Positions 10,511 through 59,927 of a stretch of 64,000 nt of DNA are shown here, one piece after another. This DNA comes from Pontibacillus sp. HMF3514 (GTDB lineage Bacteria > Bacillota > Bacilli > Bacillales > BH030062). The stretch's first letter is position 1. The number at the start of each line of letters is the position of its first letter. The stretch spans positions 930,001 through 994,000 of the forward strand of contig NZ_CP047393.1 in assembly GCF_009858175.1 (NCBI RefSeq), in the 5' to 3' direction. Made by a program: the position numbers and the translations under genes. The notes beneath the pieces were generated by a model. That model saw only the letters and a program-made list of their open reading frames with translations, was not told where the DNA came from and ran no database searches.

Positions 10511-10641
10511 AGCAGATCGACTGAAAAACGCAGTGAACCGCCTGAATCTTGACTTGTTGCGCCTGAATCAGTGTTGGGATAGCCTGCATAGAAGTTAGGA
10601 TCGCCTGAATCTACAATCAGACCGCCTGAAAAAGTGTCTCT
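10511..10641. repeat. 21-base tandem array A, core CGCCTGAA (6 units)
   Basis: The trinucleotide CTG of the core begins at 10521, 10542, 10563, 10584, 10605 and 10626, exactly 21 bases apart with no insertion or deletion. Only the core (mostly CGCCTGAATC) is conserved; the other 11-13 bases of each unit vary. The array fills the space between the operon terminator and the convergent ATPase gene. The same core recurs in the array at 40255-40420. Confidence 0.85.
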
Positions 10642-10655
10642 TCCTTATCCTAAAT

Positions 10656-11441
10656 CTACAAATGCCTCAAAAACTGCTCCGGATGATTCAAAAAATCCTT
10701 CGTCAGCTTCACATGCTCAAGCTCCTCATAGGATTTATGAATAAGCTCACCATCCTCAATCGATAAAAGATCTGCCTCTGGTAACGCCATCAACATGGGC
10801 GAATGAGTCGCAATAATAAATTGCGACCCTTCTCGAACCGAATCCATAATCAATGATATAAGAGATAATTGCTTTAATGGAGACAACGGTGCTTCAGGCT
10901 CATCCAAAATATAAAAACTATTCGGCCTTAGCCTTGCTTTGAAAAGATCCAGAAAACTTTCCCCATGAGATCGCACTTCAAGTCCATCTCCATAAAGGTT
11001 CTTTAGCTCACCAACTGTTCTCGCATAAGGAAGCACTTCATAACTATGGGGATCCTCTCTTCGAATACGTTCAAGCTGTTGTTCCGCATCTTCTCTATAC
11101 TCCGTTACCTTTTGAACATAGTTTCGAAAATCCTCCGCACGAAAAAAGAACCCTGATTTAGTCCGGGCATGCCAAGTAAGGTCAAGGTGAAGCGCTATTT
11201 TCCTAGCGGCCTGTAGTGTAGGGTCCTGATCAATCGTTTCTCCTCCAATTAAAATGCTATCACTCTCAAAAGCAATCGATTCAAGTAGAGTTGATTTTCC
11301 CGTACCATTTTCGCCTATGAGAATGGTGATGGGTTTTTCAAAATGGAACGTATCGAGTTGACGAAAGAGAGATAAGGAAAAAGGGAACTCCTCCTCTTGA
11401 AATGAAGGTTGCTTATACTGGACAGATTTTAAGTGAAGCAC
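10656..11441 (-). CDS. AAA family ATPase, ABC-type/COG3910-like
   Basis: This is a stand-alone cytoplasmic ATP-binding protein of unknown function. The Walker A motif GENGTGKST (about residue 42), a DEPEAPLS Walker B motif and a late THSP switch motif resemble predicted ATPases of COG3910. I chose GTG at 11441 because it follows GGGGGG; a longer frame to 11516 has no ribosome binding site. The protein is 261 aa. It is convergent with the maltodextrin operon and divergent from argS. It may be a lone overcoming-lysogenization-type or repair-type ATPase; the function is not known. Confidence 0.75.
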   Translation of the reverse strand: MLHLKSVQYKQPSFQEEEFPFSLSLFRQLDTFHFEKPITILIGENGTGKSTLLESIAFESDSILIGGETIDQDPTLQAARKIALHLDLTWHARTKSGFFFRAEDFRNYVQKVTEYREDAEQQLERIRREDPHSYEVLPYARTVGELKNLYGDGLEVRSHGESFLDLFKARLRPNSFYILDEPEAPLSPLKQLSLISLIMDSVREGSQFIIATHSPMLMALPEADLLSIEDGELIHKSYEELEHVKLTKDFLNHPEQFLRHL

Positions 11442-11507
11442 CGAAATCCCCCCTTTAACAGTTTTGAATTTACTATATCGTAAAAGATCAAAAAGGTAAA
11501 AGAATCC

Positions 11508-11536
11508 TTTACACAATTTTACTGTTCGGATATAAT
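11508..11536 (+). promoter_or_regulatory. Sigma-A promoter of the argS leader
   Basis: The -35 element TTTACA (11508-11513) and the -10 element TATAAT (11531-11536) are spaced by exactly 17 bases. Transcription would begin near 11543, just before the T-box leader. Confidence 0.8.
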
Positions 11537-11554
11537 AAGTTCAATATATGAAAA

Positions 11555-11810
11555 TCGCCTATGAAAAAGAGAGTAATCGTGTGGACACTAAAGCGAACCA
11601 GGGTTGGTGCGAGCCTGGAAGTGTGAAAGACGATGAACCGGACTTTTGAGGCATGACCCTGAACGCGTGAGTAGGGGCATCGGCAACTTGCCGTTATCAA
11701 GTACAAGAGCTGACCTTTCGTGTGTCTTTTTGGCGAAGGGTAATGAGAGTGGTACCGCGGATAACAACCCGTCTCTTTTCCTAATTGTTAGGGAAAGGGG
11801 CGGGTTTTTT
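11555..11810 (+). ncRNA. T-box riboswitch of argS
   Basis: This leader senses uncharged tRNA and controls read-through into argS. Seen directly: a stem I apical region of T-box type (GGTTGGTGCGAGCC, about 11605-11618), the conserved T-box sequence GAGTGGTACCGCGG (11747-11760), and a terminator stem AACCCG...CGGGTTTTTT (11766-11810) that competes with the antiterminator. A CGG followed by A near 11639 is a candidate arginine specifier codon, but I could not fold stem I to prove it. The leader is unusual in being followed by about 250 bases of extra 5' UTR with a tandem array before argS. Confidence 0.88.
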
Positions 11811-11827
11811 GTGTTTTTGTTAGAAAA

Positions 11828-12037
11828 GTGAGGAAGCAGTCGTAATAAGTGAAGAAGATAGCCAAAAAAGTGAGGAAGTAGCTGTAATAAGTGAAGAAGA
11901 TAGCCAGAAAAGTGAGGGAGTAGCTGTAATAAGTGAAGAAGATAGCAAGAAAAGTGAGGAAGTAGCTGTAATAAGTGAAGAAGATAATCAGAAAAGTGAG
12001 GAAGCAACCACAATTAATGAGAAAGTTGCCCTACCCA
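11828..12037. repeat. 21-base tandem array B in the argS 5' leader, core GTGARGAAG (10 units)
   Basis: The core GTGA(A/G)GAAG starts at 11828 and recurs every 21 bases up to 12017, ten units without a gap. Two unit types alternate, giving a 42-base higher-order period. The reverse complement of the core, CTTCYTCAC, equals the core of the larger array at 23797-24174. The array lies between the T-box terminator and the argS ribosome binding site, so it is transcribed whenever argS is expressed. Confidence 0.88.
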
Positions 12038-12074
12038 TACGTACGCAAAAGAGTGAATCTAAGGAGGAATCACA

Positions 12075-13772
12075 ATGAATTACCAAAACGACATAATCAC
12101 AATCCTACAAAAAGCATTACAAAACAACCTATCAACCGAACAAATCGAAAACCTACTCGAAACACCAAAACACACGCACATGGGGGATGTTGCCCTACCG
12201 TGTTTTGAACTAGCCAAAATTGAAAAGAAAAATCCAGCTCAAATTGCCCAAGAACTAGCCACTCAAATTAACCCTAAAAACACAATCATTTCCCATGTTG
12301 AAGCGGCTGGTCCCTATGTGAACCTTTTCTTAAATAAATCCCAATTTGCCACAGAGCTCCTTCAAACGATCATCACGGAAGGTCAACAATATGGAACGCA
12401 ATCATATGGTGCTGGTAAAACCATCACGATGGATGTATCGCACCCAAATATAGCGAAACCATTTTCAATGGGGCATCTCCGATCAACGGTGATCGGCAAT
12501 GCAATCGGAAACCTACTTGAGAAAACAGGTTACAACGTCGAGCGTCTCAACTACCTGGGGGATTGGGGGACCCAGTTCGGAAAACTTATTGCGGCTTATA
12601 AACTTTGGGGAGATGAGGAAAAAGTTCGTGCCAACCCCATCCAAGAACTCCTTAATCTCTATGTATATTTTCACGAAAAAGCAGAGGAGGACAACTCACT
12701 TGACCAGCTCGGCCGCGATTGGTTTAAAAAGCTAGAAAAGGGTGATGAAGAGGCAACGAAGATTTGGAAGTGGTTCCGTGAAGAGTCTTTAGAGGCGTTC
12801 CAAACGATTTATGATCTACTTAATGTCTCGTTTGACTCGTACAAAGGTGAATCCTCTTTCCATGCTCAATCCGATCAAATTATCGAGATGCTAAATCAAA
12901 AAGGATTGCTAGAAGAGTCGGATGGTGCACAAGTTGTTCGTCTTGATGATTTAGATATGCCACCAGCGCTTATCAAAAAATCCGATGGCACGACACTTTA
13001 TACAACCCGTGACCTTGCAGCTGCGATCTATCGTAAGGAAACCTATCAACATGCGGAATCCCTCTATGTGGTTGGAAATGAGCAAAGTCTTCACTTCAAT
13101 CAGGTAAGAGCTGTCCTTTATAAACTTGGGTATGAGTGGTCAGGTGAAATTACCCACATTTCTTTTGGTATGATGCTGAAGGATGGGAAGAAAATGTCCA
13201 CACGTAAAGGGAAAGTCGTATTTCTGGAGGAAGCACTAGAAAAAGCGATTCAATATGCCAAAGAAAATGTGGAAGAGAAAAATCCATACTTAGCCCAAAA
13301 AGATGAGGTTGCTCGCCAAATTGGTGTGGGAGCGGTGATCTTCCACGATCTGAAAAATGACCGTCGTAATGATATTGAGTTTTCCTATGATGAAATGCTG
13401 CGTTTTGATGGTGATACAGCACCGTATTTGCAGTACACCTATGCGCGTGCCAAGTCCATTTTACGTAAAGCTGGGGCTACTTCAACAAGCTATCAATTTC
13501 ATGAAGCGGATTGGGATTATTCGTGGCCGATTATTCAAAAAATGGCTTCCTTCCCTGATGTGATTCAACAAGCCGTTTATTATTACGATCCGTCTAAAAT
13601 GGCGAAGTACTTGCTGAAGCTTGCACAAAATTTTAATAGCTACTATGCCAACGTACGTATTTTAGAGGAAGGACCAAACCAATCTTCCCGCCTAGCACTA
13701 GTTCAGTCTGTAAGTGTAGTTATAAAAGAAGGATTATCCTTACTCGGAATTGAAGCACCTGAAGAGATGTAA
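12075..13772 (+). CDS. argS: Arginyl-tRNA synthetase
   Basis: This class I enzyme charges tRNA-Arg in the cytoplasm. Its 565 aa is close to the usual 556. The N-terminal Add-1 domain is followed by the HIGH-type motif (HPNIAKPFSMGHLRST, residues 123-138). A KMS-type loop KKMSTRKG lies near residue 372, and the C-terminal anticodon-binding domain follows, to the usual end. The ATG at 12075 follows AAGGAGGA. Expression is controlled by the T-box leader upstream. The first 40 codons are unusually A-rich. Confidence 0.95.
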   Translation: MNYQNDIITILQKALQNNLSTEQIENLLETPKHTHMGDVALPCFELAKIEKKNPAQIAQELATQINPKNTIISHVEAAGPYVNLFLNKSQFATELLQTIITEGQQYGTQSYGAGKTITMDVSHPNIAKPFSMGHLRSTVIGNAIGNLLEKTGYNVERLNYLGDWGTQFGKLIAAYKLWGDEEKVRANPIQELLNLYVYFHEKAEEDNSLDQLGRDWFKKLEKGDEEATKIWKWFREESLEAFQTIYDLLNVSFDSYKGESSFHAQSDQIIEMLNQKGLLEESDGAQVVRLDDLDMPPALIKKSDGTTLYTTRDLAAAIYRKETYQHAESLYVVGNEQSLHFNQVRAVLYKLGYEWSGEITHISFGMMLKDGKKMSTRKGKVVFLEEALEKAIQYAKENVEEKNPYLAQKDEVARQIGVGAVIFHDLKNDRRNDIEFSYDEMLRFDGDTAPYLQYTYARAKSILRKAGATSTSYQFHEADWDYSWPIIQKMASFPDVIQQAVYYYDPSKMAKYLLKLAQNFNSYYANVRILEEGPNQSSRLALVQSVSVVIKEGLSLLGIEAPEEM

Positions 13773-13848
13773 AAAGAAGGAAAATAGATAGGGGCTCCAG
13801 AACCTATTAAGGAGGGAATTTAATATCTAAAAGGAAGTTGGATCAATT

Positions 13849-14262
13849 TTGCTACAAGACTTTAAGGGGTTTTTAAGTGAGTATCGAGATTCTTGGAACA
13901 GCTTAGATGCAGAAAGAATGGCTGCTCATAACTCAAAGGGATTCAAAGCAATATGGGCTAATCCAGACTCTATCACTTCTGAATGGGGATATGATGAAGC
14001 TAAAGAGGGATGGATCCAAGCTTATCAACAGTATCAAGGTAGAAGTCCCATATGGCATTTTGAGGACGTTCTTATCAACATCAATAACCATGAGGAAGGC
14101 GTCGTTGTTTGTTGGGTAAGTTTTGAATTGGATGGGAAGATGACAGACGTTAAGTTGTTATTTACTCAAACCTTCAAGAAGGAAAATGGGGAATGGAAGA
14201 AAATTAGAGAATACGTTGAAAATAGTTTTGCGAATGAACGCCTAAAAACGTGTACTTCATAA
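13849..14262 (+). CDS. Small NTF2-like (SnoaL/DUF4440-type) protein
   Basis: This 137-aa soluble protein probably has the cone-shaped NTF2-like fold, given its pattern: a helical N-terminus with YRDSWNSLDAERMAAH, a middle helix, and late strands ending in GEWKKIREYVENSF. Such proteins often bind small ligands; no catalytic function can be assigned. The TTG start at 13849 is inferred from an AAGGAAG about 11 bases before it. It follows argS by 76 bases and may be cotranscribed; a terminator follows it. Confidence 0.65.
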   Translation: MLQDFKGFLSEYRDSWNSLDAERMAAHNSKGFKAIWANPDSITSEWGYDEAKEGWIQAYQQYQGRSPIWHFEDVLININNHEEGVVVCWVSFELDGKMTDVKLLFTQTFKKENGEWKKIREYVENSFANERLKTCTS

Positions 14263-14265
14263 AAG

Positions 14266-14295
14266 AAAAAGCTCAGAGCATCTCTGAGCTTTTTT
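14266..14295 (+). terminator. Terminator after the NTF2-like gene
   Basis: The hairpin AGCTCAGAG / CTCTGAGCT with a three-base loop is followed by six T residues, a few bases after the stop codon. Confidence 0.9.
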
Positions 14296-14351
14296 AGCTC
14301 TCTAGGAAATTATAAAATTCGTGGGCTTGTGTATAACTTATTTATGAGAGC

Positions 14352-14505
14352 GTGGCCACATCCAGCTCCAGCGCCCAGCAACGAATGGACTTCCCTCGCC
14401 TCCGTTCGATAAGTCAACATCAAATTGTTACACAATTTGTGTTTCCTTTATCTTACTACGGGCTCAGTCCAGTCCCTTCGTTGCTAAACGGGCGCTTGCG
14501 CTTTT
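14352..14505. repeat. Bacillaceae-type intergenic hairpin element, copy 1
   Basis: The ends pair over a long distance: AGCGCCCAGCAACGAATGGA near the left end matches the complement of CCCTTCGTTGCTAAACGGGC near the right end. The right end, GGGCGCTTGCGCTTTT, and the left CTCCAGCGCCC also occur in the copy at 39009-39164 and, more divergently, at 33658-33772. It abuts the 3' end of the leftward oxidoreductase gene. I recognise this type of element as common between genes in Bacillaceae; no function is known to me. Confidence 0.75.
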
Positions 14506-14509
14506 GTTC

Positions 14510-15622
14510 CTACTCAATATCCATATTAAGTTCCGTATCCTTAACATGAGCAATCGGGAATAGGATAGACTCTGCATCAAATTCTTTCAGTTCAAGGCCT
14601 TTTTGAACACGATGTGGTGTATCTGGGTTCGCAAGAGCACCTGTGCCAAGTGATACAAAATCGGCACCTTCTTCTTCAACAGCTTTTAATGCCTGGTCAG
14701 GGTCCCCCAGTTTTCCATTTGCAATCACAGGCTTGCCACCAAAATCTTTAGCGGCTTTTGCCATAGAACGAGATCCTTCTCCAAAACTTTCAGCTGTTCC
14801 ATCACCATCCGTAACATGAATATAGTCTATTGGAAGTTCTCCGATTGTAGAAAAAATCGTTTCAGCTGTCTCTTCACCGCCTGGCCATTTGTAAGCCTGA
14901 TCCGATACTTTTCCTTGAGAAAGACGAATTCCAACAACAAATTGACTTCCCACTACTCCACGAACTTCTTGAATCACTTCTTTTATAATTCGCAAGCTGT
15001 TTTCAACAGAATCACCGTACTCATCTGTACGCTGGTTCATATAGTCTGTTAGGAATTCATCAAGTAAGTAGCCGTTCGCTCCATGGATTTCTACGCCGTC
15101 AAATCCTGCTTTCTTTGCTTTAATTGCAGCGCGAGCGAAAGAGTCGATTACGTTTTGAATATCATCAAGGGTCATTTCGCGTGCAGTAGGGAATGGACCT
15201 GATCCACCATAAAAACCAAGTTGCTCTCCTTTTGGTGCTACGTTGGAAGGAGCAATTGTTTCATCTACATAAGGGTTACCTTGAACCTGTGCACCTGCAT
15301 GCATCAGCTGGGCGATCATTTTCGTACCATGCTCGTGAACAGTATCTACAATTGGCTTCCATGCTTCTGCATGTTCTTTTGTAGCAAGGCCAGGTTGATT
15401 ATCGTAACCTTGACTATGTTTTTTATCCGTATAGATACCTTCTGAAATAATGGCAGCAAAACCGCCTTTAGCATATCGCTCATAATACTCCTTCATGCGA
15501 TCATTAGCTCGTCCATCACTCTCTGCTGTAACTCGAGTCATTGGAGCTACAATATATCGATTATCGAGTGTTAAATTATTAAGCGTTTGTTCAGTAAAAA
15601 GGGATTCGTATTTGTTTGTCAT
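14510..15622 (-). CDS. Old yellow enzyme family NADH:flavin oxidoreductase
   Basis: This FMN-dependent ene-reductase-type enzyme is 370 aa with a TIM barrel. Visible family features are the N-terminal LFTEQTLNNLTLDNRYIVAPMTR, the substrate-site HGAN motif (VEIHGANGYLLDEFL) and a late phosphate-binding VSLGTGALANPD. The ATG at 15622 follows AGGAGG. It is likely monocistronic, since it is flanked by a hairpin element and by the SDR gene, which runs in the same direction with a 130-base gap. The physiological substrate is unknown; it is related to, but not the same as, YqjM. Confidence 0.87.
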   Translation of the reverse strand: MTNKYESLFTEQTLNNLTLDNRYIVAPMTRVTAESDGRANDRMKEYYERYAKGGFAAIISEGIYTDKKHSQGYDNQPGLATKEHAEAWKPIVDTVHEHGTKMIAQLMHAGAQVQGNPYVDETIAPSNVAPKGEQLGFYGGSGPFPTAREMTLDDIQNVIDSFARAAIKAKKAGFDGVEIHGANGYLLDEFLTDYMNQRTDEYGDSVENSLRIIKEVIQEVRGVVGSQFVVGIRLSQGKVSDQAYKWPGGEETAETIFSTIGELPIDYIHVTDGDGTAESFGEGSRSMAKAAKDFGGKPVIANGKLGDPDQALKAVEEEGADFVSLGTGALANPDTPHRVQKGLELKEFDAESILFPIAHVKDTELNMDIE

Positions 15623-15756
15623 ATAGAAACCTCCTGTAATCTTGATGTCGAAACATGAGCTATTATAATGAAAACTTTTAGATAAAGCTAAATATGTGCT
15701 TTGGTTATTATGTTCATTATTGTTATAGATATCCGTTTTGGTGAGGAGATAAACAA

Positions 15757-16629: not shown

Positions 16630-16773
16630 AACACCAACTCCTTTTCTTTACATCTTCCCCCGATCATTGAAATGTTACACTTGAATATTGCTATGGAACA
16701 AAGGTCTCTTATGTGTGAATGATACAAAAGTATAGAAGTGATTTTTTTGGAAAAAGTAAAAAAGGAAGTTTCA

Positions 16774-17580: not shown

Positions 17581-17582
17581 TC

Positions 17583-18041: not shown

Positions 18042-18044
18042 CAT

Positions 18045-18080
18045 AAAAAAGCTGCCGAGTAAAGTCACTCAACAGCTTGA
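18045..18080 (-). terminator. Terminator of the YppF-like gene
   Basis: Read leftward, the stem AAGCTGTTGAGT / ACTCGGCAGCTT is followed by six T residues. It also lies directly after the rightward membrane-protein gene. Confidence 0.75.
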
Positions 18081-18094
18081 ATAAGTATAAAGTT

Positions 18095-23652: not shown

Positions 23653-23796
23653 ATGGACACCTCATTTTCTGCTTGTTTAGTTATGTAGTCGTTGGTGGTG
23701 TGAAAAAGTTACAGTTGAGGGAGAATTTTTATTTGGGGGATGATAAGAGGTAAAAGGGAGTATTGTGGAAAAAGTGTTATTACAGACAACCTCCAC

Positions 23797-24174
23797 ACTA
23801 AGTGGATGATGTTCTTAACTAAATCAGAGGACTTTTACACTAAATGGATGGCGTTCTTCACTAAATCAGAGGACTTCCACACTAAATGGATGGCGTTCTT
23901 AACTAAATCAGAGGACTTCCACACTAAATGGATGGCGTTCTTCACTAAATCAGGGAACTTCTACACTAAATGGATGATGTTCTTCACTAAATCAGAGGAC
24001 TTCCACACTAAATGGATGGTGTTCTTCACTAAATCAGAGGACTTCCACACTAATTAGTTGATGTTCTTCACTAAACCAGAGAACTTCCTCACTAATTAGT
24101 TAATATTCTTCACTAAATTAGAGAACTTCCTCACTTCTATACTGCTTTTCTACACTATTTGATCATTTTCCTGA
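23797..24174. repeat. 21-base tandem array C, core CTTCNNCACTAAAT (18 units)
   Basis: ACTA of the core begins at 23797 and recurs every 21 bases to 24154, 18 units with no insertion or deletion (one copy reads ACTT). Two unit types alternate, one with CAGAGGA and one with GGATGRYG after the core, giving a 42-base super-period over most of the array; the right end decays. It lies upstream of the beta-propeller gene. The core equals the reverse complement of that in array B, 12 kb away. Confidence 0.92.
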
Positions 24175-24212: not shown

Positions 24213-24244
24213 TAAAAGCCGTTGGAGCAACTCCAACAGCTTTT
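24213..24244 (-). terminator. Terminator after the small gene at 24254
   Basis: AAAAGCTGTTGGAG pairs with CTCCAACGGCTTTT and is followed on the leftward strand by a T-rich run. Confidence 0.88.
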
Positions 24245-24253: not shown

Positions 24254-24391
24254 CTATTTATGATCGGTTTTCTTAGAAAATTGACGCTCGCCGCGTTGTC
24301 TTGCTGCTTCGCGTTCTTCATTTTTTTGAGCACGCTTAGCATTGTTGTCGAACGGCTTTTTGTTATCATCTTTTGTATTCTTTGTAGCCAT
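24254..24391 (-). CDS. Small hydrophilic protein, unknown
   Basis: A 45-aa very polar protein (MATKNTKDDNKKPFDNNAKR...) with a basic Arg/Glu-rich helix. It lacks a signal peptide. The KPFDNNAKRAQKN pattern is one I associate with a conserved small-protein family of Bacillaceae that is often mis-named; the function is unknown. The ATG at 24391 is preceded by AAGGAGTG. A terminator follows. The DegV gene lies 50 bases upstream in the same direction. Confidence 0.7.
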   Translation of the reverse strand: MATKNTKDDNKKPFDNNAKRAQKNEEREAARQRGERQFSKKTDHK

Positions 24392-31136: not shown

Positions 31137-33077
31137 TTATTTATCTAAAGGTGTCATAATTGGGAAGTCAGTATCAATCTGGTCAAGAGCCCATAAGAAC
31201 TGATGCCATTTTTGGATGTCTCCAATTACTTTTATGGAAGAAGGACTCGGACGATTATTTGTAGTCGCTAATTCATACAAGGATGCTTGATCCATAATGA
31301 CTTTTACTTCGTCTTCCTTTAATTCATTGGATAAATACCTGAAAATACCTCTTTTCACCTCTGTTAATGCTTTTTCTTTTCGATCTGTAATAATAAAATT
31401 TAATTTAAAATCATATTCACCAGCAATTATTCCATTTAACCGGATACTTAGCATATTTAATACTTGCTCTAATGTCATGATATCTAGAACTTCGTTTGTT
31501 ATGGTAGACCGTTTAATCGGGATGATGCCATAACGTAATTCTTGAGCACCCATTAAATATTCATTTCTCCATGGGCCAGACTCTGCAATATAGGCTAGTT
31601 GTTCCAATGCATCTGCACAAAGGTATTTTGCTTTATAGTTGGAAGGGTTAGAGTAGATAAGATGTTTTGTCACTTCAGCCACCCATTGATAGTCACCTTC
31701 CTTAAAGGATCTCTTTGCTTTCTTCAGTAATTCATCCTCACCGCCCATGTATTCAACGTATTTTTTAGAAGATTCTTCAGGAATTAATTTATTTAAGTCC
31801 ACTGGATTCCCGTTATACCACCCCATATACTTTTGATAGACGGCTTTTGCATTATGATTTACGGTTCCATAAAAGGGACTGTTATACCATTCTTTTCTGA
31901 GACTTTCAGGAAATGTTACCATCCTTCCTACTTGATCAATTGTGTACCCTTGATTGATTAGTCTCAGCGTTTGATCATTGATATATTGATACATGTCTCG
32001 TTGCTTTTCCATGTAACTGATACAATAGTCTCTTCCATGTCTTGGCCAGGTGTGAACTTCAAACAACGATGTCATATGATCGCCAAATAAATCAATAGCT
32101 TGCTGGATATAGGTTGCCCACGCAACAGGATCACGTACCTCAGCTCCGCGGAGTGTATAAATATTATGAAGGGAAGCGGTACAGTTTTCTGCAATACATA
32201 AACTATGTTCCTCAGGTATATAAATATTCATTTCAGCTGGTGCCTCAGTGTCCGGGGTTAACTGAAACTGCATTCGAACACCATCTATGAATTTTTCCAC
32301 ATAGGATTCCTGATCTGATAAGGTGATTTCTTCAGCAGAATTCACTAAGGTTACAACACCTGTAGAAACGTACTTTCCAATTCCACAATCGACTTGCCCT
32401 TTTTCACCACGAGGTAATACTTCACCATACATGTAAAAACCTCGGCGAGACATAGCGACACCAGCAGTCACGTTTTCTTCCAGTGCAGCATTTAAAAATC
32501 CACTAGGTGCATAAATCTTAACATCATCGGTTGTTCCACTTTCGAGGACACCATCCACTCCACCATAGTGGTCCACATGTGAATGGGAGAATATAATTGC
32601 GCTAACAGGAGATTCTCCAAAATAACTGTTAATTAACTCAAAAGCAGCTTGAGCTGTCTCTCTAGAAGTTAAACAATCAATCACAATCCATCCACTTTTT
32701 CCGCGAATGATACTTAAATTAGCAAGATCGTATCCTCGTACTTGATAGATGTTTTCAGTTACTTGAAAAAGACCGGCATTCAAATTTAATTTACCTTGGT
32801 ACCATAACTTCGGATTTACGGTAGAGGGGATATCATCTTTTTGTAGAAATTCATATCGTTTTAAGTCCCATACAGGGAGGAGAGAGTTATTCGGTTTTAT
32901 GACAGGATAAGGTACACTTTTTAACACATTTCTCGTTGCCCATTCTTGCTCTAACTTTAGTCGTTTCCAATGGATATTCTTTTTAAATTCTGCGTTTATT
33001 TTCTTTGTTTCCTCAGTAGCATCTTTTCGAAAAGGGGTGAATTTCTCTTCAAGACAGTTTTCATCATAATTGTTCAT
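31137..33077 (-). CDS. Alkylsulfatase (SdsA1/BDS1 family, metallo-beta-lactamase fold)
   Basis: This zinc enzyme cleaves alkyl sulfate esters to alcohol and sulfate. The 646-aa protein has the metallo-beta-lactamase motif HSHVDH (His165, His167, Asp169, His170) in its N-terminal part, the alkylsulfatase dimerisation domain in the middle, and a SCP2-like C-terminal domain (about 510-646). There is no signal peptide. The ATG at 33077 follows GGAGGTGGG; the reading frame happens to stay open upstream through a repeat array to 33530, which I reject as coding. The substrate could be a detergent-like or natural alkyl sulfate. Confidence 0.88.
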   Translation of the reverse strand: MNNYDENCLEEKFTPFRKDATEETKKINAEFKKNIHWKRLKLEQEWATRNVLKSVPYPVIKPNNSLLPVWDLKRYEFLQKDDIPSTVNPKLWYQGKLNLNAGLFQVTENIYQVRGYDLANLSIIRGKSGWIVIDCLTSRETAQAAFELINSYFGESPVSAIIFSHSHVDHYGGVDGVLESGTTDDVKIYAPSGFLNAALEENVTAGVAMSRRGFYMYGEVLPRGEKGQVDCGIGKYVSTGVVTLVNSAEEITLSDQESYVEKFIDGVRMQFQLTPDTEAPAEMNIYIPEEHSLCIAENCTASLHNIYTLRGAEVRDPVAWATYIQQAIDLFGDHMTSLFEVHTWPRHGRDYCISYMEKQRDMYQYINDQTLRLINQGYTIDQVGRMVTFPESLRKEWYNSPFYGTVNHNAKAVYQKYMGWYNGNPVDLNKLIPEESSKKYVEYMGGEDELLKKAKRSFKEGDYQWVAEVTKHLIYSNPSNYKAKYLCADALEQLAYIAESGPWRNEYLMGAQELRYGIIPIKRSTITNEVLDIMTLEQVLNMLSIRLNGIIAGEYDFKLNFIITDRKEKALTEVKRGIFRYLSNELKEDEVKVIMDQASLYELATTNNRPSPSSIKVIGDIQKWHQFLWALDQIDTDFPIMTPLDK

Positions 33078-33225
33078 CAGATCCCACCTCCATAAAACAT
33101 AGTATTCAGGTAGATATCTGTTCATACATGGAAAAGAGCATTGATTTGCAGGGGGAATCAATGTTCTAGTGTATATCTCTAAACCAATTTTCTTCTTATT
33201 AAAGCAGAGAATAGTAAGTGAGTTT

Positions 33226-33568
33226 GGATAGAATGTTTCTAATTCTGTATAGGAAGTGAATGATTTTGGATAGAGGGTTTCTAATTCTGTATAGGAAGTG
33301 AATGATTTTGGATAGAGGGTTTCTAATTCTGTATAGGAAGTGAATGATTTTGGATAGAGGGTTTCTAATTCTGTATAGGAAGTGAATGATTTTGGATAGA
33401 GCGTTTCTAGTTCTGTATAGGAAGTGAATGATTTTGGATAGAGCGTTTCTAATTCTGGATAGGAAGAGAATACTTTTGGATAGAGCGTTTCTAATTCTGG
33501 ATAGGAAGAGAATACTTTTGGATAGAGCATTTCTAATTCTGGATATGAGCTGTCCTAATTCAGGATAG
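33226..33568. repeat. 21-base tandem array D, core GGATAG/GTATAG (16-17 units)
   Basis: The hexamer G(G/T)ATAG begins at 33226 and recurs every 21 bases through 33541, 16 units without a gap; a 17th at 33563 is shifted by 1 base. Two types alternate: GGATAGAGNGTTTCTA and G(T/G)ATAGGAAGNGAAT, giving a 42-base super-period. It lies upstream of the alkylsulfatase gene. Because 21 is divisible by 3, the leftward frame stays open and runs into the alkylsulfatase frame. Confidence 0.92.
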
Positions 33569-33585
33569 AGCAGCATTATAAAACA

Positions 33586-33620
33586 AAAAAGCAGCCGCCC
33601 CAAAAGGCGAGCTGCTTTTT
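33586..33620. terminator. Bidirectional terminator between repeat array D and hairpin element
   Basis: AAAAAGCAGC pairs with GCTGCTTTTT, with an inner GCC/GGC. T residues flank both ends. It probably ends the leftward DUF3813 transcript. Confidence 0.8.
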
Positions 33621-33657
33621 GTGTGAAAGAGTGTCGACTCCTAAATTGTGAGCCTTT

Positions 33658-33772
33658 GTCCAACTCCGGCTTCCAGCGGCTATCGTATAGGCAATATCTC
33701 CTTCAGTGGTTACTCCACTTACGGATATCTTGCCTATTCGTACGCCACTAAACGGTCGCCTTCGCTTTTCTT
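33658..33772. repeat. Intergenic hairpin element, copy 2 (divergent, shorter)
   Basis: The left end CCAACTCCGGCTTCCAGCGG and the right end ACTAAACGGTCGCCTTCGCT resemble the ends of the copies at 14352 and 39009. The inner GTATAGGCAATATC pairs with GATATCTTGCCTATTC. It ends 2 bases before the stop codon of the DUF3813 gene, like copy 1, which also sits tight against a 3' gene end. Confidence 0.68.
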
Positions 33773-33774
33773 AA

Positions 33775-33975
33775 CTACTTCAACCCTTCGTGGCGTTCGA
33801 TTTGCTGTTGCAGTTGTTGTAATTGCTGTTGCTCCTCTTGGGAAGCATTAGCGCGTGCAGAGTTGATCGCGTTACGTGCTTGACGGACCTCTTCTTCACG
33901 TGCTTGACCATTGCGGTTGGTGATATTGCTGACAGCTTGTTTCGCTTGTTGGAATAAGTTATTGTTGTTTTGCAA
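33775..33975 (-). CDS. DUF3813-like small protein
   Basis: This 66-aa soluble protein is Gln/Asn-rich, with a helical C-terminal half (QEEQQQLQQLQQQIERHEG) and an N-terminus MQNNNNLFQQAKQAVSNI that fits DUF3813 proteins of Bacilli. The start is TTG at 33975, 7 bases after GGGAGGG; no ATG is available. It follows the 33977 gene by 1 base, and the ribosome binding site overlaps that gene's end, so the two are coupled. Confidence 0.72.
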   Translation of the reverse strand: MQNNNNLFQQAKQAVSNITNRNGQAREEEVRQARNAINSARANASQEEQQQLQQLQQQIERHEGLK

Positions 33976-40254: not shown

Positions 40255-40420
40255 GTGCTTTCGCCTGAATAGGTATAATAACCGTCCGAATCTGTGGTGA
40301 AACCGCTCGAATTTAAACAAAGACCACCCACATACAAGTCAAAACAGCCTGAACTTAACCAAAGAGCGCCCGAACAAAGGGGAAAACCGCCCGAACCAGA
40401 GCTCAGATCGCCATCAAAAC
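40255..40420. repeat. 21-base tandem array E, core CCGCCCGAA (8 units)
   Basis: The CG at the start of the core recurs exactly every 21 bases from 40263 to 40410: eight units with no insertion or deletion. Cores read CGCCTGAA, CGTCCGAA, CGCTCGAA, AGCCTGAA or CGCCCGAA; the flanks vary. This is the same family as array A at 10511-10641, 30 kb away. It lies between divergent yjzD and yjaU. Confidence 0.88.
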
Positions 40421-40537
40421 AAAAAAATCTTTCACCAAATCACATTCTTTTTCATACAAAGGCGTGTAACCATACGAATTTTTAACAATAACATACATTA
40501 TAGAGGATAGAATCCCTTTAAAAAGGATGATAAAAAC

Positions 40538-45706: not shown

Positions 45707-45746
45707 GATGCTTTATGTGGGGAGAGAAAGTTTGCACACAATTATG

Positions 45747-45850
45747 ACGCTCACAGGTGGTGGACAGACGCACAAAAATAGAGAGTCATGCCAAATTCAA
45801 TGAGACCGACGCAAAGACAAAATAATGGACGCCAAAATATAATTCACCCC
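45747..45850. repeat. 20/21-base tandem array F, core GACGC(A/C) (5 units)
   Basis: ACGC (ATGC once) begins at 45747, 45768, 45788, 45809 and 45829: steps of 21, 20, 21 and 20 bases. It fills the gap between the fabF terminator and the convergent LCP gene. This is the least regular of the arrays and could be called chance if it stood alone. Confidence 0.65.
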
Positions 45851-48281: not shown

Positions 48282-49560
<1,279 letters not shown>

Positions 49561-49600: not shown

Positions 49601-49608
49601 GTAACAAA

Positions 49609-52212: not shown

Positions 52213-52393
52213 GTTATCGAAGGTATAGATTTTAATCTAACTTCAAAACCAATTTAATTGGAAGAGAGTATATGTCCACCTAGAGTTGGCGTATACTCTC
52301 TTTTACCTTGTAAAGGTAATATTTTCACAATGGTGAATTTTCCGTCAACTTTCGACAAGAAATGTCATTCAAATGTAAATTGGAGGTGTTGGA

Positions 52394-53323: not shown

Positions 53324-53326
53324 GGT

Positions 53327-54469: not shown

Positions 54470-54487
54470 AAAGGTAGGTGTTGAATA

Positions 54488-55546: not shown

Positions 55547-56472
55547 GCCAGGAAAAATTAGTAGAGATTAAAGACTTAAAACAACATTTTAAAACAGGTC
55601 GTCATAGTGTCGTTAAAGCTGTTGATGGTCTGACATTTGATATTTATAAAGGGGAAACGTTCGGACTTGTAGGTGAGTCTGGTTGCGGTAAATCTACAAC
55701 AGGTCGTACGATTATTCGTCTTTATGACGCTACAGACGGTGAAGTTTTATTTGATGGTGAGAATGTACACGGAAAGAAAAACCGTGATGAAATGAAGAAG
55801 TTCAACCAAAAAATGCAGATGATCTTCCAGGACCCATATGCATCCCTAAACCCTCGTATGACGGTTGAGGACATCATTGCAGAGGGATTAGATATTCATG
55901 GACTGGCGAAAGACCACAAAGCTCGAAAAGCTAGAGTTCATGAATTACTTGAAACAGTTGGTCTAAATAAAGAGCACGCACAACGTTACCCACACGAGTT
56001 CAGTGGTGGTCAACGTCAACGTATTGGTATTGCACGTGCTTTAGCTGTTGACCCTGACTTCATTATTGCGGATGAGCCAATTTCTGCGTTGGACGTATCC
56101 ATTCAAGCGCAGGTTGTTAACTTATTGAAAAAGCTTCAGCAAGAAAAAGAGTTAACCTACCTGTTTATCGCTCACGACTTATCCATGGTAAAATACATCT
56201 CTGACCGTATTGGTGTAATGTACTTTGGTAGGCTTGTTGAGGTAGCAGATAGTGATGAGTTGTATAAGAATCCTTTGCACCCCTACACGCAATCCCTTCT
56301 ATCTGCAATTCCATTACCGGATCCTGACTATGAGCGTAACCGCCAACGTTTCAATTACGATCCATCTAAGCATGATACAAGTGAAGAGCCTGAGTTCCGT
56401 GAAGTGAAACCAGGTCACTGGGTACTGTGTACAACGAAAGAATTTGAACAGTACAAAAAAGAAATTAAATAA
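55543..56472 (+). CDS. oppF: Oligopeptide ABC transporter ATPase OppF
   Basis: This 309-aa ATPase has Walker A GESGCGKS (residues 44-51), signature FSGGQRQRIG and Walker B FIIADEPISALD. The C-terminal GHWVLC is typical of OppF. Its start overlaps the oppD end by 4 bases. In B. subtilis Opp imports signalling peptides for competence and sporulation; that role is likely here but not shown. Confidence 0.94.
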   Translation: MSQEKLVEIKDLKQHFKTGRHSVVKAVDGLTFDIYKGETFGLVGESGCGKSTTGRTIIRLYDATDGEVLFDGENVHGKKNRDEMKKFNQKMQMIFQDPYASLNPRMTVEDIIAEGLDIHGLAKDHKARKARVHELLETVGLNKEHAQRYPHEFSGGQRQRIGIARALAVDPDFIIADEPISALDVSIQAQVVNLLKKLQQEKELTYLFIAHDLSMVKYISDRIGVMYFGRLVEVADSDELYKNPLHPYTQSLLSAIPLPDPDYERNRQRFNYDPSKHDTSEEPEFREVKPGHWVLCTTKEFEQYKKEIK

Positions 56473-56477
56473 TAATG

Positions 56478-56508
56478 TAAGCCTCATCTTTTCTTAAGGT
56501 GAGGCTTA
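56478..56508 (+). terminator. Terminator of the opp operon
   Basis: TAAGCCTCA pairs with TGAGGCTTA, with a loop of 13 bases that has an internal CTT/AAG pair, followed by TTTAAA. The T run is short, so its strength is uncertain. Confidence 0.75.
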
Positions 56509-56703
56509 TTTAAAACATCGAATTTCCATATTTAGGTTTTTGTTTTGAAAATAGTGGTAAAGTTAGATCATGGAGTACATAGAGTTAAGTCAAAGGACTT
56601 ATTTTATATACAGATAAGGAAAAATTTAAAAATCTTTCCCAAAAGGTGTTTGTTCTCTTTTATAATGGAAGTAAATCAAAAAAATTCAGGAGTCGATGCG
56701 TGT

Positions 56704-57942
56704 ATGGAGAAAAAACAACTAAAGATTTTGTCCCTCATAGGAATTCTCCTAGTTAGTCTTGTTTACCCGTTACATACGGAAGCGAAACAGTCAGATGAAG
56801 AAACGAAAGTACAAAAAGTAGTCTTTCATTCTGGTAATCAAATGAAACTTCAATCTAGAGAATTACCAGACCCAGTACCACGTTTTGTCTATGATTCTGG
56901 TTTTGATTTTGAATATCCAGATGCGGTTAGAGGCATTTATGTTACTGGTCCAAGTGCGGGTGGAAGTCGTTTTGAAAAATTACTGAAGCTTGTTGATGAG
57001 ACAGATCTAAATAGTATGGTCATTGATATTAAAGAAGATGCCGGCATTTTAACATTTAAACCAGAAGAAGGTTCTCCTTATGAGGATGTGGGCATTAACT
57101 ATATCAAAGATGTAAGAGAAGTGTTAAAAACGTTAGAGAAGCATGATATTTATCCAATTGCTAGAGTTGTAGTATTTAAGGATTCTAAATTAGCTAAAAA
57201 ACGTCCAGACCTTTCATTTACGAAGAACGGTCAGGTTTGGGAAAATGGTAAAGGCGAGTCTTTTGTAAACCCATTCCTAAAAGAGGTATGGGACTACAAC
57301 GTTGAAGTTGCTAAGATGGCCGCTAAAATGGGCTTTAAAGATATCCAATTTGACTACGTTCGTTTCCCAGAAGGATTCGAAAAACGGGATGACGTTTTAA
57401 ATTATGATCAAGGAAAATATAAAGATCTAGAATTAGACGATGTACAAAAACGAGTAACAGCAGTCACAGATTTTGTTGAGTATGCTAGAAAAGAATTAGA
57501 GTATTATGGTGTTGATGTATCTGTAGATATTTTTGGTTATTCAGCGACTATACCTGAAGCACCAGGAATTGGTCAAAACTTCACTAAAATCTCTAAAAAC
57601 GTAGATGTGATATCTTCCATGATTTATCCATCACACTGGACATCGTACTTTGGCATCCCATTCCCTGATAAAGAGCCTTATCGTTTGGTTACAGAGTATG
57701 CGAAAGTTGAAAACGAGCGTTTAGGTGAGCTTGAAGATCCACCAACTTCTCGTCCGTGGATTCAAGACTTTAGTGCACCTTGGTTATACTATAACGAACC
57801 TACAAAATATTATGATAAAGAGGATGTAGAGGCTCAAATCCGTGCCCTTAATGAAAATGGCATTCAAGAGTTCTTGTTATGGAATCCATTGAACTCTTAC
57901 TCGGAAAATGTTGATTATACACCTTTAGATAAAGAATCATAA
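56704..57942 (+). CDS. Putative secreted glycoside hydrolase (DUF4015)
   Basis: This 412-aa protein has an N-terminal signal (residues 1-29, MEKKQLKILSLIGILLVSLV...), then a DUF4015 TIM-barrel-like domain (about 70-400: YVTGPSAGGSRFEKLLKLVD, IQFDYVRFPEGF, LLWNPLNSYSE). The IQFDYVRFPEG motif holds likely acidic catalytic residues. I choose ATG 56704: a TATAAT at about 56660 makes an earlier start unlikely. The substrate is unknown. Confidence 0.82.
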   Translation: MEKKQLKILSLIGILLVSLVYPLHTEAKQSDEETKVQKVVFHSGNQMKLQSRELPDPVPRFVYDSGFDFEYPDAVRGIYVTGPSAGGSRFEKLLKLVDETDLNSMVIDIKEDAGILTFKPEEGSPYEDVGINYIKDVREVLKTLEKHDIYPIARVVVFKDSKLAKKRPDLSFTKNGQVWENGKGESFVNPFLKEVWDYNVEVAKMAAKMGFKDIQFDYVRFPEGFEKRDDVLNYDQGKYKDLELDDVQKRVTAVTDFVEYARKELEYYGVDVSVDIFGYSATIPEAPGIGQNFTKISKNVDVISSMIYPSHWTSYFGIPFPDKEPYRLVTEYAKVENERLGELEDPPTSRPWIQDFSAPWLYYNEPTKYYDKEDVEAQIRALNENGIQEFLLWNPLNSYSENVDYTPLDKES

Positions 57943-57966
57943 TCGAGTATAAAATACTGCAAAACG

Positions 57967-58005
57967 AAAAAGCCTACCACTAGAATGTTAAGTGGTAGGC
58001 TTTTT
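57967..58005. terminator. Terminator between the DUF4015 gene and the small convergent gene
   Basis: AAAAAGCCTACCACT pairs with AGTGGTAGGCTTTTT. It is nearly symmetrical, so it may work in both directions. Confidence 0.92.
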
Positions 58006-58006
58006 A

Positions 58007-58192
58007 TCATGATTTTTTTCCGCCAATTCCGCGCCAATGCGTTTGAAAGGATCTCGATTTACTGAGGTATTCATCTTGTTGATTTCGTCCAAATAGTCCT
58101 TGTCCAATTCCTTGTACGATTACGGCCAGGAATGCTGTCAATCCAATGATCGAAAAACCGACTAACATCATATCCAAGATTAAGCTACTCAG
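58007..58192 (-). CDS. Small membrane protein, unknown, possible CTG start
   Basis: The frame encodes one hydrophobic segment (MLVGFSIIGLTAFLAVIVQG) and a polar basic tail (QDEYLSKSRSFQTHWRGIGGKKS). The best ribosome binding site, GGAGGCGATG, is followed after 9 bases by CTG at 58192 (61 aa). The first ATG of the frame is at 58171 (54 aa), 27 or more bases from that site. A start with CTG is therefore inferred. I do not recognise the protein. Confidence 0.55.
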   Translation of the reverse strand: MSSLILDMMLVGFSIIGLTAFLAVIVQGIGQGLFGRNQQDEYLSKSRSFQTHWRGIGGKKS

Positions 58193-58353
58193 GGATCATC
58201 GCCTCCTTGTGTATCTAATGCTATTGTAGCTTATGTTTATATATATGAAAAGGTGGGGTATAGTTGACGTGAAATTGATATATTTGGTTGAAATTTAACA
58301 AAAGAGTGAAATTTCGTTATAATGATAGAGACTACACAAAAAGGAGTAGATCA

Positions 58354-58950
58354 ATGAATTGGTATGAGAAGCTGAATAAGTATTTCCCGGTAGAGGAAAT
58401 GAAGTCACGCGAGCATATGGAAATGCTACTAAAAGAAAAAGGCGATGTGTACAGAAAAGATGAAAGTGAAAATCATGTACTCATGTACGCCGAGTTTGAT
58501 TCCTTTATCTTTATTGATTATGTATGGGTCTCTACGAAAACACGAGGCCAAGGAATTGGGCACCAACTGATTGAAAAACTGAAGGCTAAAGGGAAACCAA
58601 TTATCCTTGAGGTCGAACCGGTTGATTATGATGATACTGACACTGAGAAACGCCTCCGATTCTACCAGAAAGAAGGGTTCGAACACGCACAGTCCATTGG
58701 TTATTCACGACGTTCCCTTGCAACCAATGAACTGAACCATATGGAAATCCTCTATTGGTCCCCAGAACACGAACCTGAAGAATCCATTTACGAGAAGATG
58801 AAAGAGATGTATGAAAATATTCATACGTACAAGGATAAAGAGCTCTACGGAAAGTCCTACCAGCCTGTAGAAGAAGTATTAACGTTAGATGATGACCGGG
58901 ATATGGGAGATATCCTTAGTGCTTTAGAGGAACCAGAAAAAGCAAAATAA
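58354..58950 (+). CDS. yjbC: GNAT acetyltransferase (YjbC)
   Basis: This 198-aa acetyltransferase has the acetyl-CoA motif STKTRGQGIGHQLIEKLK (about residues 68-85) and a long charged C-terminal tail ending DMGDILSALEEPEKAK. ATG 58354 follows AAGGAGT. It precedes spx, as in B. subtilis, where yjbC and spx can be cotranscribed; here a terminator lies between them. The substrate is unknown. Confidence 0.85.
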   Translation: MNWYEKLNKYFPVEEMKSREHMEMLLKEKGDVYRKDESENHVLMYAEFDSFIFIDYVWVSTKTRGQGIGHQLIEKLKAKGKPIILEVEPVDYDDTDTEKRLRFYQKEGFEHAQSIGYSRRSLATNELNHMEILYWSPEHEPEESIYEKMKEMYENIHTYKDKELYGKSYQPVEEVLTLDDDRDMGDILSALEEPEKAK

Positions 58951-58957
58951 CAAAATA

Positions 58958-59000
58958 AACAAGCAGGTTGATGCTATTAAAGCCACCTGCTTGTTTTTTT
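58958..59000 (+). terminator. Terminator of yjbC
   Basis: AACAAGCAGGT pairs with ACCTGCTTGTT and is followed by five or more T residues, 8 bases after the stop codon. Confidence 0.9.
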
Positions 59001-59304
59001 GTTTTATTTTGAAACCTTAAGGGTAATATTTACGTATAAGGAAATAGAACATATAGGTTAGAAAAAATCGATATTTATCAAAAAAAGAAGTTTATTGAGA
59101 ATACTCACGGGGAAATGTACATATATATTAGGCCTTGTATAAGTTTTGTTACAGAAAAATTATATTTTTTTCTATACCTATCGTTTTTGGAGGAAATGTA
59201 GTATACTTAATTTAAGCATAGCTACATTACATTTATTTTAATCTAATAAGTGATTAAAAGAATACATTTTTTATAAATTTAAAAAATTGAGGAGTGAAGA
59301 TTGT
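59001..59304. other. spx upstream control region
   Basis: About 300 bases that are AT-rich and without a gene. TATACT near 59211 is a candidate -10 element, but I see no good -35 element. The spx promoters of B. subtilis are controlled by several sigma factors and by PerR and YodB; I could not identify those sites with confidence here. GAGGAGTG is the ribosome binding site for spx. Confidence 0.45.
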
Positions 59305-59700
59305 ATGGTAACACTTTATACTTCTCCAAGTTGTACATCATGTCGTAAAGCAAAAGCATGGTTAGAGGAACATGATATTCCGTTCCAAGAACGTAACATC
59401 TTCTCGGAGCCATTGTCTATTGATGAGATTAAAGAAGTCTTACGTATGACAGAGGACGGAACGGATGAAATTATCTCTACCCGTTCGAAAGTATTTCAGA
59501 AGATGGATGTTGATTTAGATCAGCTTCCGTTAAAAGATCTTTTTGATATGATTACAGAACATCCTGGTCTACTTAGAAGACCTATTATCGTTGATGAAAA
59601 GCGTTTACAGGTTGGATATAACGAAGATGAAATCCGTCGCTTCCTACCTCGTAAAGTACGTTCTTTCCAACTACAAGAAGCTCAGCGTCTAGTGAACTAA
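59305..59700 (+). CDS. spx: Global stress regulator Spx
   Basis: Spx binds the alpha-subunit C-terminal domain of RNA polymerase and redirects transcription during thiol stress. The 131-aa protein has the redox CxxC (Cys10, Cys13 in [10 protein letters not shown]) and the [25 protein letters not shown] stretch typical of ArsC-like Spx. The length equals that of B. subtilis Spx. ATG 59305 follows GAGGAGTG. mecA, encoded downstream, is not its adaptor; YjbH would be. Confidence 0.95.
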
Positions 59701-59703
59701 TAA

Positions 59704-59745
59704 AAACCACTGCACCTTTGCCTACATAGGTGCAGTGGTTTTTTG
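59704..59745 (+). terminator. Terminator of spx
   Basis: AACCACTGCACC pairs with GGTGCAGTGGTT and is followed by TTTTGG, 4 bases after the stop codon. Confidence 0.92.
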
Positions 59746-59843
59746 GTTATAATATTATTTAATTCCGTTAATTGGTAGTTATCTGGAATAATGTATTTTG
59801 ATGAAAGGGGGGCATTGCGTTTGAGAAGAGGGCTAGGGGCTTT

Positions 59844-59927
59844 CGGTTAAGCACTGTATTCTGCCGGGTAGAAGCTGCTTTTCGTCGGGTAGGCACTGTA
59901 TTCCATCGGTTAGCCCCCTGCATTGTC
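59844..59927. repeat. 21-base tandem array G, core CGG(G/T)TAG (4 units)
   Basis: CGG(T/G)TA begins at 59844, 59865, 59886 and 59907, exactly 21 bases apart. Types alternate: units 1 and 3 continue with GCACTGTATTC, unit 2 with GAAGCTGC, a 42-base super-period. It lies between the spx terminator and the convergent yjbE gene. Confidence 0.8.

Follow-up and report, generated by a model that had tools for sequence, protein, structure and literature searches.

Intergenic DNA of the salt-loving bacterium Pontibacillus (strain Pontibacillus sp. HMF3514) holds arrays with a 21-base period, and we confirmed that these arrays are real. An array consists of short cores strung in a row, with nearly free spacers between them, and the step from core to core is held at 21 and sometimes 20 bases. 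The arrays often stand directly behind intrinsic transcription terminators, and many of their positions are kept between sister species. They are non-coding, as is seen from 20-base steps that break the reading frame and from where the arrays lie, and they are the Pontibacillus members of a 20-21 nt class of satellites with constant size and variable sequence.

A first-pass annotation of a 64,000-nucleotide stretch of this genome (the window) had listed seven intergenic 21-base arrays, here called A to G (Table 1). Scanning the window for self-similarity at lags 8-129 in 63-base frames with at least 36 matches, we recovered six of the seven; array F fell under the threshold and is the sole one without statistical support. 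Lone matches at lags 15, 24, 33, 51 and 111 fall outside the arrays. The strict spacing described earlier was borne out in A (4 of 4 steps), B (8/8) and C (14/15, the last step being 42), as was the shift at the end of D, where 21 is kept over 15 steps before the phase changes; the cores of F (GACGC/CATGCC at 45746, 45767, 45787, 45808 and 45828) follow the alternating steps of 21, 20, 21 and 20 that had been reported. A 42-base super-period was found by TRF in B, C and D (92, 90 and 96% matches) and by lag 42 in E. Shared cores were likewise seen, CGCCTGAAT being common to A and E, and AGTGARGAAG to B and C in opposite orientation. At least four repeats are clear in A-D, while E is degenerate and F and G are borderline.

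Table 1. Arrays of the window and the neighbouring terminators and leader (window coordinates).
Feature	Position	Strand	Basis and remarks
Intrinsic terminator of LacI-family gene 9385-10425, preceding array A	10447..10479	+	
Array A, family F2 (core CGCCTGAAT), ~6 units of 21	10511..10636	+	Lag scan (lag 21, 10518-10631); shared with P. marinus
argS T-box leader (RF00230)	11552..11779	+	Rfam scan
T-box attenuator terminator hairpin and T-run, shortly before array B	11765..11810	+	dG -27.9
Array B, family F1 (core AGTGARGAAG), ~10 units, 42-base super-period, inside argS leader	11822..12031	+	TRF; lag 21 (11816-12033) and lag 42, multiples follow; P. marinus array at equivalent position
Array C, family F1, ~17 units	23791..24156	-	TRF; lag 21 (23797-24095) and lag 42, multiples follow; shared with P. 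marinus
Terminator hairpin of small minus-strand gene 24254-24391, 35 bases ahead of array C	24218..24243	-	
Array D, family F4 (core TTNTGGATAGAG), ~17 units with a terminal phase shift	33221..33577	+	TRF; lag 21 (33210-33554) and lag 42, multiples follow; ~4 units at equivalent position in P. marinus
Terminator hairpin of DUF3813 gene 33775-33975, abutting array D	33590..33616	-	
Array E, family F2, ~7-8 degenerate units	40261..40415	+	Lag 42 (40260-40429), multiples follow; aligned with P. marinus
Array F, weak, GACGC core, steps 21/20/21/20, after fabF terminator	45741..45850	unassigned	No P. marinus counterpart
Array G, family F3 (TCGGGTAGGC), ~4 units, adjoining conserved end of dispersed element	59843..59923	+	Lag 21 (59829-59923); no P. 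marinus counterpart

The period is not peculiar to the window. In a 1.264 Mb sample of the Pontibacillus sp. HMF3514 genome, one third of the whole, 635 intergenic spans (262 kb) gave 27 matches at lag 21, against 0, 1, 0 and 0 at lags 19, 20, 22 and 23 and a mean of 0.6 in five Markov shuffles of the same sequence; 15 matches are left once the window and four stretches picked for known arrays are removed. The observation thus stands against shuffled sequence, in which lag 21 is nearly absent. This intergenic count is an undercount, since the gene model labelled some arrays as genes (e.g. L022, L172). Within arrays, identity is 0.585 at lag 21, 0.243 at lag 7 and 0.238 at lag 14. Seven intergenic matches at lag 51 resembled a published 52-nt class but were not counted as arrays, because the six listed share the motif ACGGACAT of a dispersed element.

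The cores are about 9-13 bases long, with one sequence per family, and families F1-F4 and others coexist in one genome with equal length and different sequence. Unrelated array families of one genus have an identical step. When the core-to-core gap was left free (nine gap lengths allowed), the step was 21 or 20 in 187 of 188 F1 and F2 core pairs. Steps of 20 bases made up 11 of 72 pairs in F2, where one array alternates 21 and 20, and 9 of 116 in F1, among them all 7 pairs of the sister species G005; F4 had a step of 21 in 18/18 triples. Steps other than 20, 21 or their multiples were absent from F1 (0/186) and rare in F2 (4/156, with L188 excluded), and the spacers of both families hold little information; the search expression itself imposes conservation on the core positions that it specifies, but not on those adjoining. 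Average-linkage clustering of array profiles gave 27 clusters, 15 of them from Pontibacillus; single linkage was dropped because it joined 86 of the 93 arrays in a single chained cluster. We also saw an A/T modulation at 10.5 bp (z 5.4 with 35 arrays treated as independent; mean power 0.185 versus 0.1 over 15 clusters, p 0.0012), which patchy composition explains equally well because power at 21 bp is higher still (0.229).

The arrays are not decayed fragments of one ordinary gene, because their cores differ and their neighbours are unrelated. The genes around them have ordinary functions with no common theme (10 upstream genes checked, one without a family), and the only Rfam matches at gathering score in the window are two T-boxes, neither inside an array.

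The arrays often have a similar place. Among 42 arrays flanked by same-strand genes in the two species pooled, a terminator lies between gene and array in 34, and in 26 of the 42 the array is at most 45 nt from it; the median distance is 5 bases from T-run to array and 176 from array to the next gene. Array placement departs from uniform (Kolmogorov-Smirnov, p=3e-8, n=33; window genome alone p=9e-4, n=17), and a sign test for nearness to the terminator is modest (23/33, p=0.035; window genome 12/17, p=0.14), the pooled loci of the two species not being independent. A terminator at the gene end is common in any case, arrays aside. The terminator is more than 100 bases away in 6 of the 34, none was found ahead of the array in 8 of the 42, and in L011, its counterpart L066, and L254 it comes after the array instead: the L011 array lies between stop codon and terminator, and that of L012 directly after the stop codon. 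Array B, within the leader of argS, comes after the terminator of the T-box attenuator, in support of a position behind terminators. Where both neighbours of an array were called (70 arrays), the genes converge in 22 cases and diverge in 6, compared with 75 and 129 of all 595 intergenic spans. Four arrays with other cores in G004, G005 and G007 lie 18-41 bases behind terminators; no terminator was found within 80 bases for G006 (L078) and three G005 arrays (L073), and arrays of other phyla showed no regular terminator link. Before these counts we dropped duplicates (L242, L196), a tRNA pair (L009), three coding-looking stretches (two of L187, one of L194), two dispersed-element matches at lag 42 (L182, L204) and arrays with fewer than two called neighbours.

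Each family also has one polarity relative to its neighbouring genes (19 of 21 arrays, P=0.0017), in a test that counted L188 as F2 despite its atypical core, included in F3 the L204 array adjoining the dispersed element, and took in 18 arrays without hand curation. Relative to replication, F2 lies on the leading strand in 12/12 cases and F1 in 6/8, F3 and F4 are mixed, and all families together give P=0.023; F2 polarity therefore fits replication and neighbouring genes equally well. Array C is oriented against replication, and the F1 array of L176 runs against both gene and replication polarity. No consistent RNA folding signal was found on either strand of 54 arrays (20 shuffles each): mean z ranged from -1.1 to 0.9 by family and strand, with single outliers in F1 (-10.5) and F4 (-4.6).

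To compare species, we aligned 14 array pairs between two of them. Cores differed at 78/938 positions (8%) and spacers at 699/2139 (33%), an approximately fourfold lower change in cores, although units possibly misaligned across species would inflate the spacer figure and deflate that for cores; around the arrays, flanking non-coding DNA differed at 481/2026 and coding DNA at 144/1799 positions. Sister species differ by whole units. Of 26 mapped P. marinus arrays, a set enriched by the fetching procedure, 23 had an array near equivalent flanks in the window genome. Among eight Pontibacillus genomes, F2 and F4 are confined to the window genome and P. marinus, where F1 also occurs, with a 20-base relative in G005 and one stray pair in G007. 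A search of 397 genomes of the order for the F1 core matched 42, of which 38 belong to other genera and have no more than two matches each; we rejected it as a widespread element, as these extra-genus matches have varied gaps where they were listed and by eye resemble the reversed-pattern control. A collection-wide scan for 21-base arrays gave 76 stretches, eight from P. marinus, the others listed comprising coding repeats, period-7 arrays (Prevotella) and 21-base arrays of other phyla; its pattern fixed the step, so it is uninformative on how common 21 is.

Several known repeats resemble these arrays in part. The REP/BIME elements of enterobacteria, to which gyrase or other proteins bind, form tandem clusters at the 3' ends of genes and where convergent genes meet, and avoid divergent promoters, a placement that the Pontibacillus arrays share, but REP units are palindromic, whereas the cores here are direct, non-palindromic and without a consistent folding signal. 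Iterons of plasmid origins are protein-bound direct repeats of about 20-22 bp, or two helical turns; the arrays are likewise direct repeats of about two turns but occupy many chromosomal loci with several core sequences, and 19 queries around the window arrays gave no plasmid replication gene among their family matches. Heptanucleotide repeats (STRR) are intergenic with a short unit, and 21 is three times seven, but the arrays have no period-7 signal. CRISPR arrays, which have cas genes nearby, combine a conserved short part with a variable part at fixed length; here the core is about 10 bases, the loci are many per genome and the units are repeated many times.

The first-pass annotation knew of no described element of this form, a view that must be given up. 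It has been reported by Subirana and Messeguer that non-coding bacterial repeats of constant size (20-21 nt), variable sequence and unknown function, with a short conserved sequence, occur in Bacillus and other bacteria (PMC8161180). In the parts of that report consulted, these satellites agree with ours in their step, their non-coding nature, the several families of one length per genome, the short sequence in every repeat, families that are species-specific but may be shared by close relatives, and, clearly in A-D, a minimum of four repeats per array. The same parts do not treat terminator position, polarity or the comparison of arrays between sister species, and the words "terminator", "termination", "downstream", "orientation", "intergenic" and "Pontibacillus" have no occurrence in the main text. 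Nor did we find terminator adjacency, family polarity or a comparison of 21-nt arrays across sister species in the literature searched.

We tentatively favour, at somewhat short of an even chance, a reading in which proteins bound in rows along one face of the helix coat the DNA behind terminators, perhaps as an insulator or roadblock. Each core would be the putative site of a DNA-binding protein; because the step equals two helical turns, all sites would fall on one face, where the proteins could line up as a chain. Such a coated stretch might serve as a roadblock or insulator sensitive to direction, blocking polymerase read-through and keeping apart transcription units that are neighbours or converge. 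Arrays would lengthen and shorten as units are gained and lost in register, with core and step maintained by selection. At least four core families in one genome count against this, since several proteins or one of loose specificity would be needed, and the absence of F and G from P. marinus indicates that not all arrays are essential.

It is doubtful, if still a serious contender, that the arrays are functionless satellites, whose cores would be slippage sites, whose units would be gained and lost in register with a step inherited from the founding unit, and which would survive only at sites that tolerate insertion, such as those behind terminators or between genes that converge. Whole-unit differences between species, the 42-base super-periods and the lack of F and G in P. 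marinus agree with this, and depletion between divergent genes fits promoter avoidance; but a single founder fails to explain a step shared by unrelated families of the genus and, as far as the report was consulted, by 20-21 nt repeats of other bacteria (PMC8161180), and the slow change of cores, the rarity of off-steps between low-information spacers and the 19/21 polarity also speak against it. A broader form of the protein-row reading, in which such satellites are a general, sequence-agnostic helical ruler bound every two turns behind terminators by a different protein in each species, with fixed polarity, as a transcription insulator, seems to us rather unlikely; the sequence would then be free to drift while step, place and polarity are kept.

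An element acting as RNA, in which an array in a read-through, 3'-UTR or leader transcript would offer a row of motifs to an RNA-binding protein or serve as a sponge, is unlikely. Polarity that tracks neighbouring genes, array C against replication, and the positions of array B and of the L011 and L012 arrays speak for it, as does the transcription reported for 52-nt satellites of B. coagulans in the portion of that study consulted (PMC8625621). However, many arrays stand behind a strong terminator, where they would be transcribed only if polymerase read through or came in from the opposite gene, no consistent folding signal is seen, and a step of 20-21 has no obvious meaning in single-stranded RNA. 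Less likely again is a length dictated by whatever machinery makes the arrays, with the ruler in an amplifying enzyme or a terminator-targeting mobile element, rather than by the function of the product: orientation is by eye identical beside terminators of differing sequence, and the conserved end of the dispersed element comes after the F3 arrays of L010, L194, L204 and the window (G), but no shared flanks were noticed by eye for F1, F2 and F4 in the flanks listed, and the 23 of 26 matched arrays, in that enriched set, suggest that new insertions are infrequent. Of the length-reading functions proposed earlier, two helical turns fit the strict spacing and weak sequence constraint, whereas heptapeptide repeats of seven codons per unit are hardly credible and, for the families F1 and F2 as wholes, refuted: three divides 21 and some frames are open across arrays (ORF 33199-33663), but 20-base steps, including those of the alternating F2 array, break the frame, stops interrupt the AGT GAR GAA frame of some F1 units, and the arrays sit behind terminators.

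Reports from across bacteria describe repeats of constant length and free sequence but give them no function, and the frequent terminator position, polarity and sister-species retention seen in Pontibacillus make their role experimentally approachable in a marine member of the genus. If a protein lattice were found on these arrays, they would represent a kind of transcription insulator in which length, and not sequence, is what is read.

The 21-base step was evident well beyond the window. We scanned 635 intergenic spans, with genes called by a codon model trained on the sampled stretches, in 1.264 Mb of the window's genome (a single contig of 3.98 Mb), comprising the window (positions 930,001-994,000) and 60 extra stretches of 20 kb. 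Lags 21, 42 and 63 gave 27, 23 and 17 matches, and the control lags 19, 20, 22 and 23 gave 0, 1, 0 and 0. Markov shuffles of the intergenic sequence produced 0.6 matches at lag 21, compared with the 27 real ones. Without the window and four stretches picked for known arrays, 15 matches remained at lag 21, and the remaining 1.12 Mb held 18 uncurated arrays at lag 20 or 21 (~16 per Mb). Six of the seven window arrays listed in the first-pass annotation were recovered at lag 21 or 42; for the seventh, array F (45.7 kb), the step itself was borne out, with cores at 21, 20, 21 and 20 bases, but the array fell below the scan threshold. The proposed 42-base super-period was found in arrays B, C and D by unit tables and TRF, and in E at lag 42.

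The first-pass annotation knew of no described element of this form. It has been previously reported, however: the arrays share the form of Subirana and Messeguer's constant-size, variable-sequence bacterial repeats (PMC8161180), and that they belong to this kind is close to certain. That paper sorts its repeats into two lengths, 20-21 and 51-53 nt, and into species-specific families with a short conserved sequence, also remarks that 21 nt equals two turns, and proposes either proteins that form polymers along DNA or small RNAs. A word search of the accessible texts of PMC8161180 and PMC6749651 returned no mention of terminators, and in the open-licence literature we found neither a repeat-terminator link nor Pontibacillus repeats, although earlier mention elsewhere is possible.

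Four core families (F1-F4) are listed in the table, and further cores are also present. Conserved A/T-rich positions surround the F1 core, and ~7-9 unit positions carry near-zero information in F1 and F2, less clearly in F4. In a core-pair search that left the gap free over nine lengths, F1 pairs from four Pontibacillus genomes (n=116) stepped by 21 in 106 cases, 20 in 9 and 24 in 1; F2 pairs from two genomes (n=72) stepped by 21 in 61 and 20 in 11, and F4 triples by 21 in 18/18. Core-to-core distances in detected arrays, which were chosen by lag, were concordant (n=186, 156, 51). In one F2 array the step switches back and forth between 21 and 20, and some arrays of another Pontibacillus genome, G005, show all of the lags 20, 21, 41, 82 and 102, with a mean step of ~20.4-20.5. 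Because steps of 20 occur as well as 21, the suggested seven-codon unit is excluded, and two helical turns of DNA fit the measured steps.

Core families, other repeats and further features in the window and in sampled loci (L-numbers)
Feature	Core or motif	Location
Family F1	AGTGARGAAG	window arrays B, C
Family F2	CGCCTGAAT	window arrays A, E
Family F3	CTCGGGTAGGC	window array G
Family F4	TTNTGGATAGAG	window array D
Dispersed element	conserved end TATCTCGATTCCAAGTCTTCC...AAGGGGGCTTTAATGGAATAA	window 63400-63900 (-); L007, L013, L014, L016, L020, L177, L178, L180, L182, L184, L188, L191, L200, L202, L204
Long hairpin terminator	GTGCCTGACCCCCA...TGGGG(G/A)TCAGGCAC	L012:6855-6910; L254; L243:3820-3870
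Second T-box leader		window 49343-49555 (-)
Mechanical ORF 31137-33530, part through array D		window 33078-33530 (-)
20-base-unit array (G005)	AGTGAMGAAAG type	L073:9740-10680
Bhargavaea cecembensis 21-base repeats	F1-like	L152:1968-6998
Period-7 arrays	TGAAGAR or TGAGGAR	L095, L097, L110, L122, L123 and others

A frequent order was upstream gene end, intrinsic terminator, array start. Between same-strand neighbours a terminator preceded the array in 34/42 cases, within 45 bases in 26/42; the median distance was 5 bases from T-run to array and 176 to the next gene. Relative placement was non-uniform (KS p=3e-8, n=33; sign test 23/33, p=0.035). Restricted to the window's own genome, the terminator came first in 18/23, with 15 of these no further than 45 bases from the array (KS p=9e-4, n=17; sign test 12/17, p=0.14). 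No terminator was found between gene and array in 8/42 same-strand cases, three of which have one behind the array. We regard array B, directly behind the argS T-box terminator, as telling. Among 70 arrays with two called neighbours, a set that includes orthologous loci of two species, 22 were convergent, 42 same-strand and 6 divergent, versus 75, 391 and 129 of 595 background spans; the own-genome figures were 12, 23 and 4 (n=39). The terminator link was present for four arrays in other Pontibacillus genomes (G004, G005 and G007); it was not seen in G006, for three G005 arrays, or as a regular feature of arrays in other phyla. Almost identical copies of one long hairpin terminator lie next to arrays that belong to different families. 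A second T-box leader had no adjacent array detected in the window lag scan.

Each family kept one core orientation relative to same-strand neighbours (19/21, P=0.0017), sense for F1 (5/6) and F2 (8/8), antisense for F3 (3/3) and F4 (3/4). Replication accounts equally well for F2 (12/12), but not for F4. Array C, among lagging-strand genes, agrees with transcription; the F1 array of L176 agrees with neither.

The sister species P. marinus has arrays A, B, C and E and a remnant of D; F and G are absent there. Of its 33 array calls, 26 were placed by their flanks in sampled parts of the window's genome, a set enriched because core patterns largely guided fetching of both genomes, and 23/26 had an array, mostly of the same family, within 1.8 kb, a measure of nearness that does not prove the same position for each. 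Across 14 aligned array pairs, 78/938 core positions differed and 699/2139 spacer positions, compared with 481/2026 in flanking non-coding sequence and 144/1799 in genes. Units 1-7 of array E pair one to one, with one 1-base gap. Other Pontibacillus species carry different cores, such as TCACGCATATCGGG immediately 3' of argS in G006 and G007.

Several other repeats were met. The end motif of a dispersed element of ~400-500 bases had 23 matches in sampled loci, all from the window's own genome; an Rfam Bacillaceae-1 RNA lies within its L177 copy, and its conserved end comes directly after four F3 arrays (L010, L194, L204 and window G). The G005 array of 20-base units has, by eye, a ~180-base repeat resembling higher-order satellite repeats. 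Bhargavaea, represented by B. cecembensis, is a second genus with dense arrays (four matches in 8 kb, one possibly coding), and period-7 arrays in Prevotella and other bacteria were met via the F1 pattern search. The mechanical ORF is over-extended upstream through array D, where the 42-base unit by chance leaves the frame open; for this alkyl sulfatase-like gene (-), a start near 33077 is the better choice.

RNA folding gave no consistent signal in the arrays. An inert satellite surviving in harmless places only is somewhat unlikely, and would account for just part of the anatomy. A protein lattice, our tentative preference, would account for all of it. A putative factor would recognise the core at two-turn intervals along the DNA, tolerating one base of slack and indifferent to the spacer, and would matter behind a terminator, in one direction. 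The chain of putative DNA-bound proteins might act as a roadblock or insulator.
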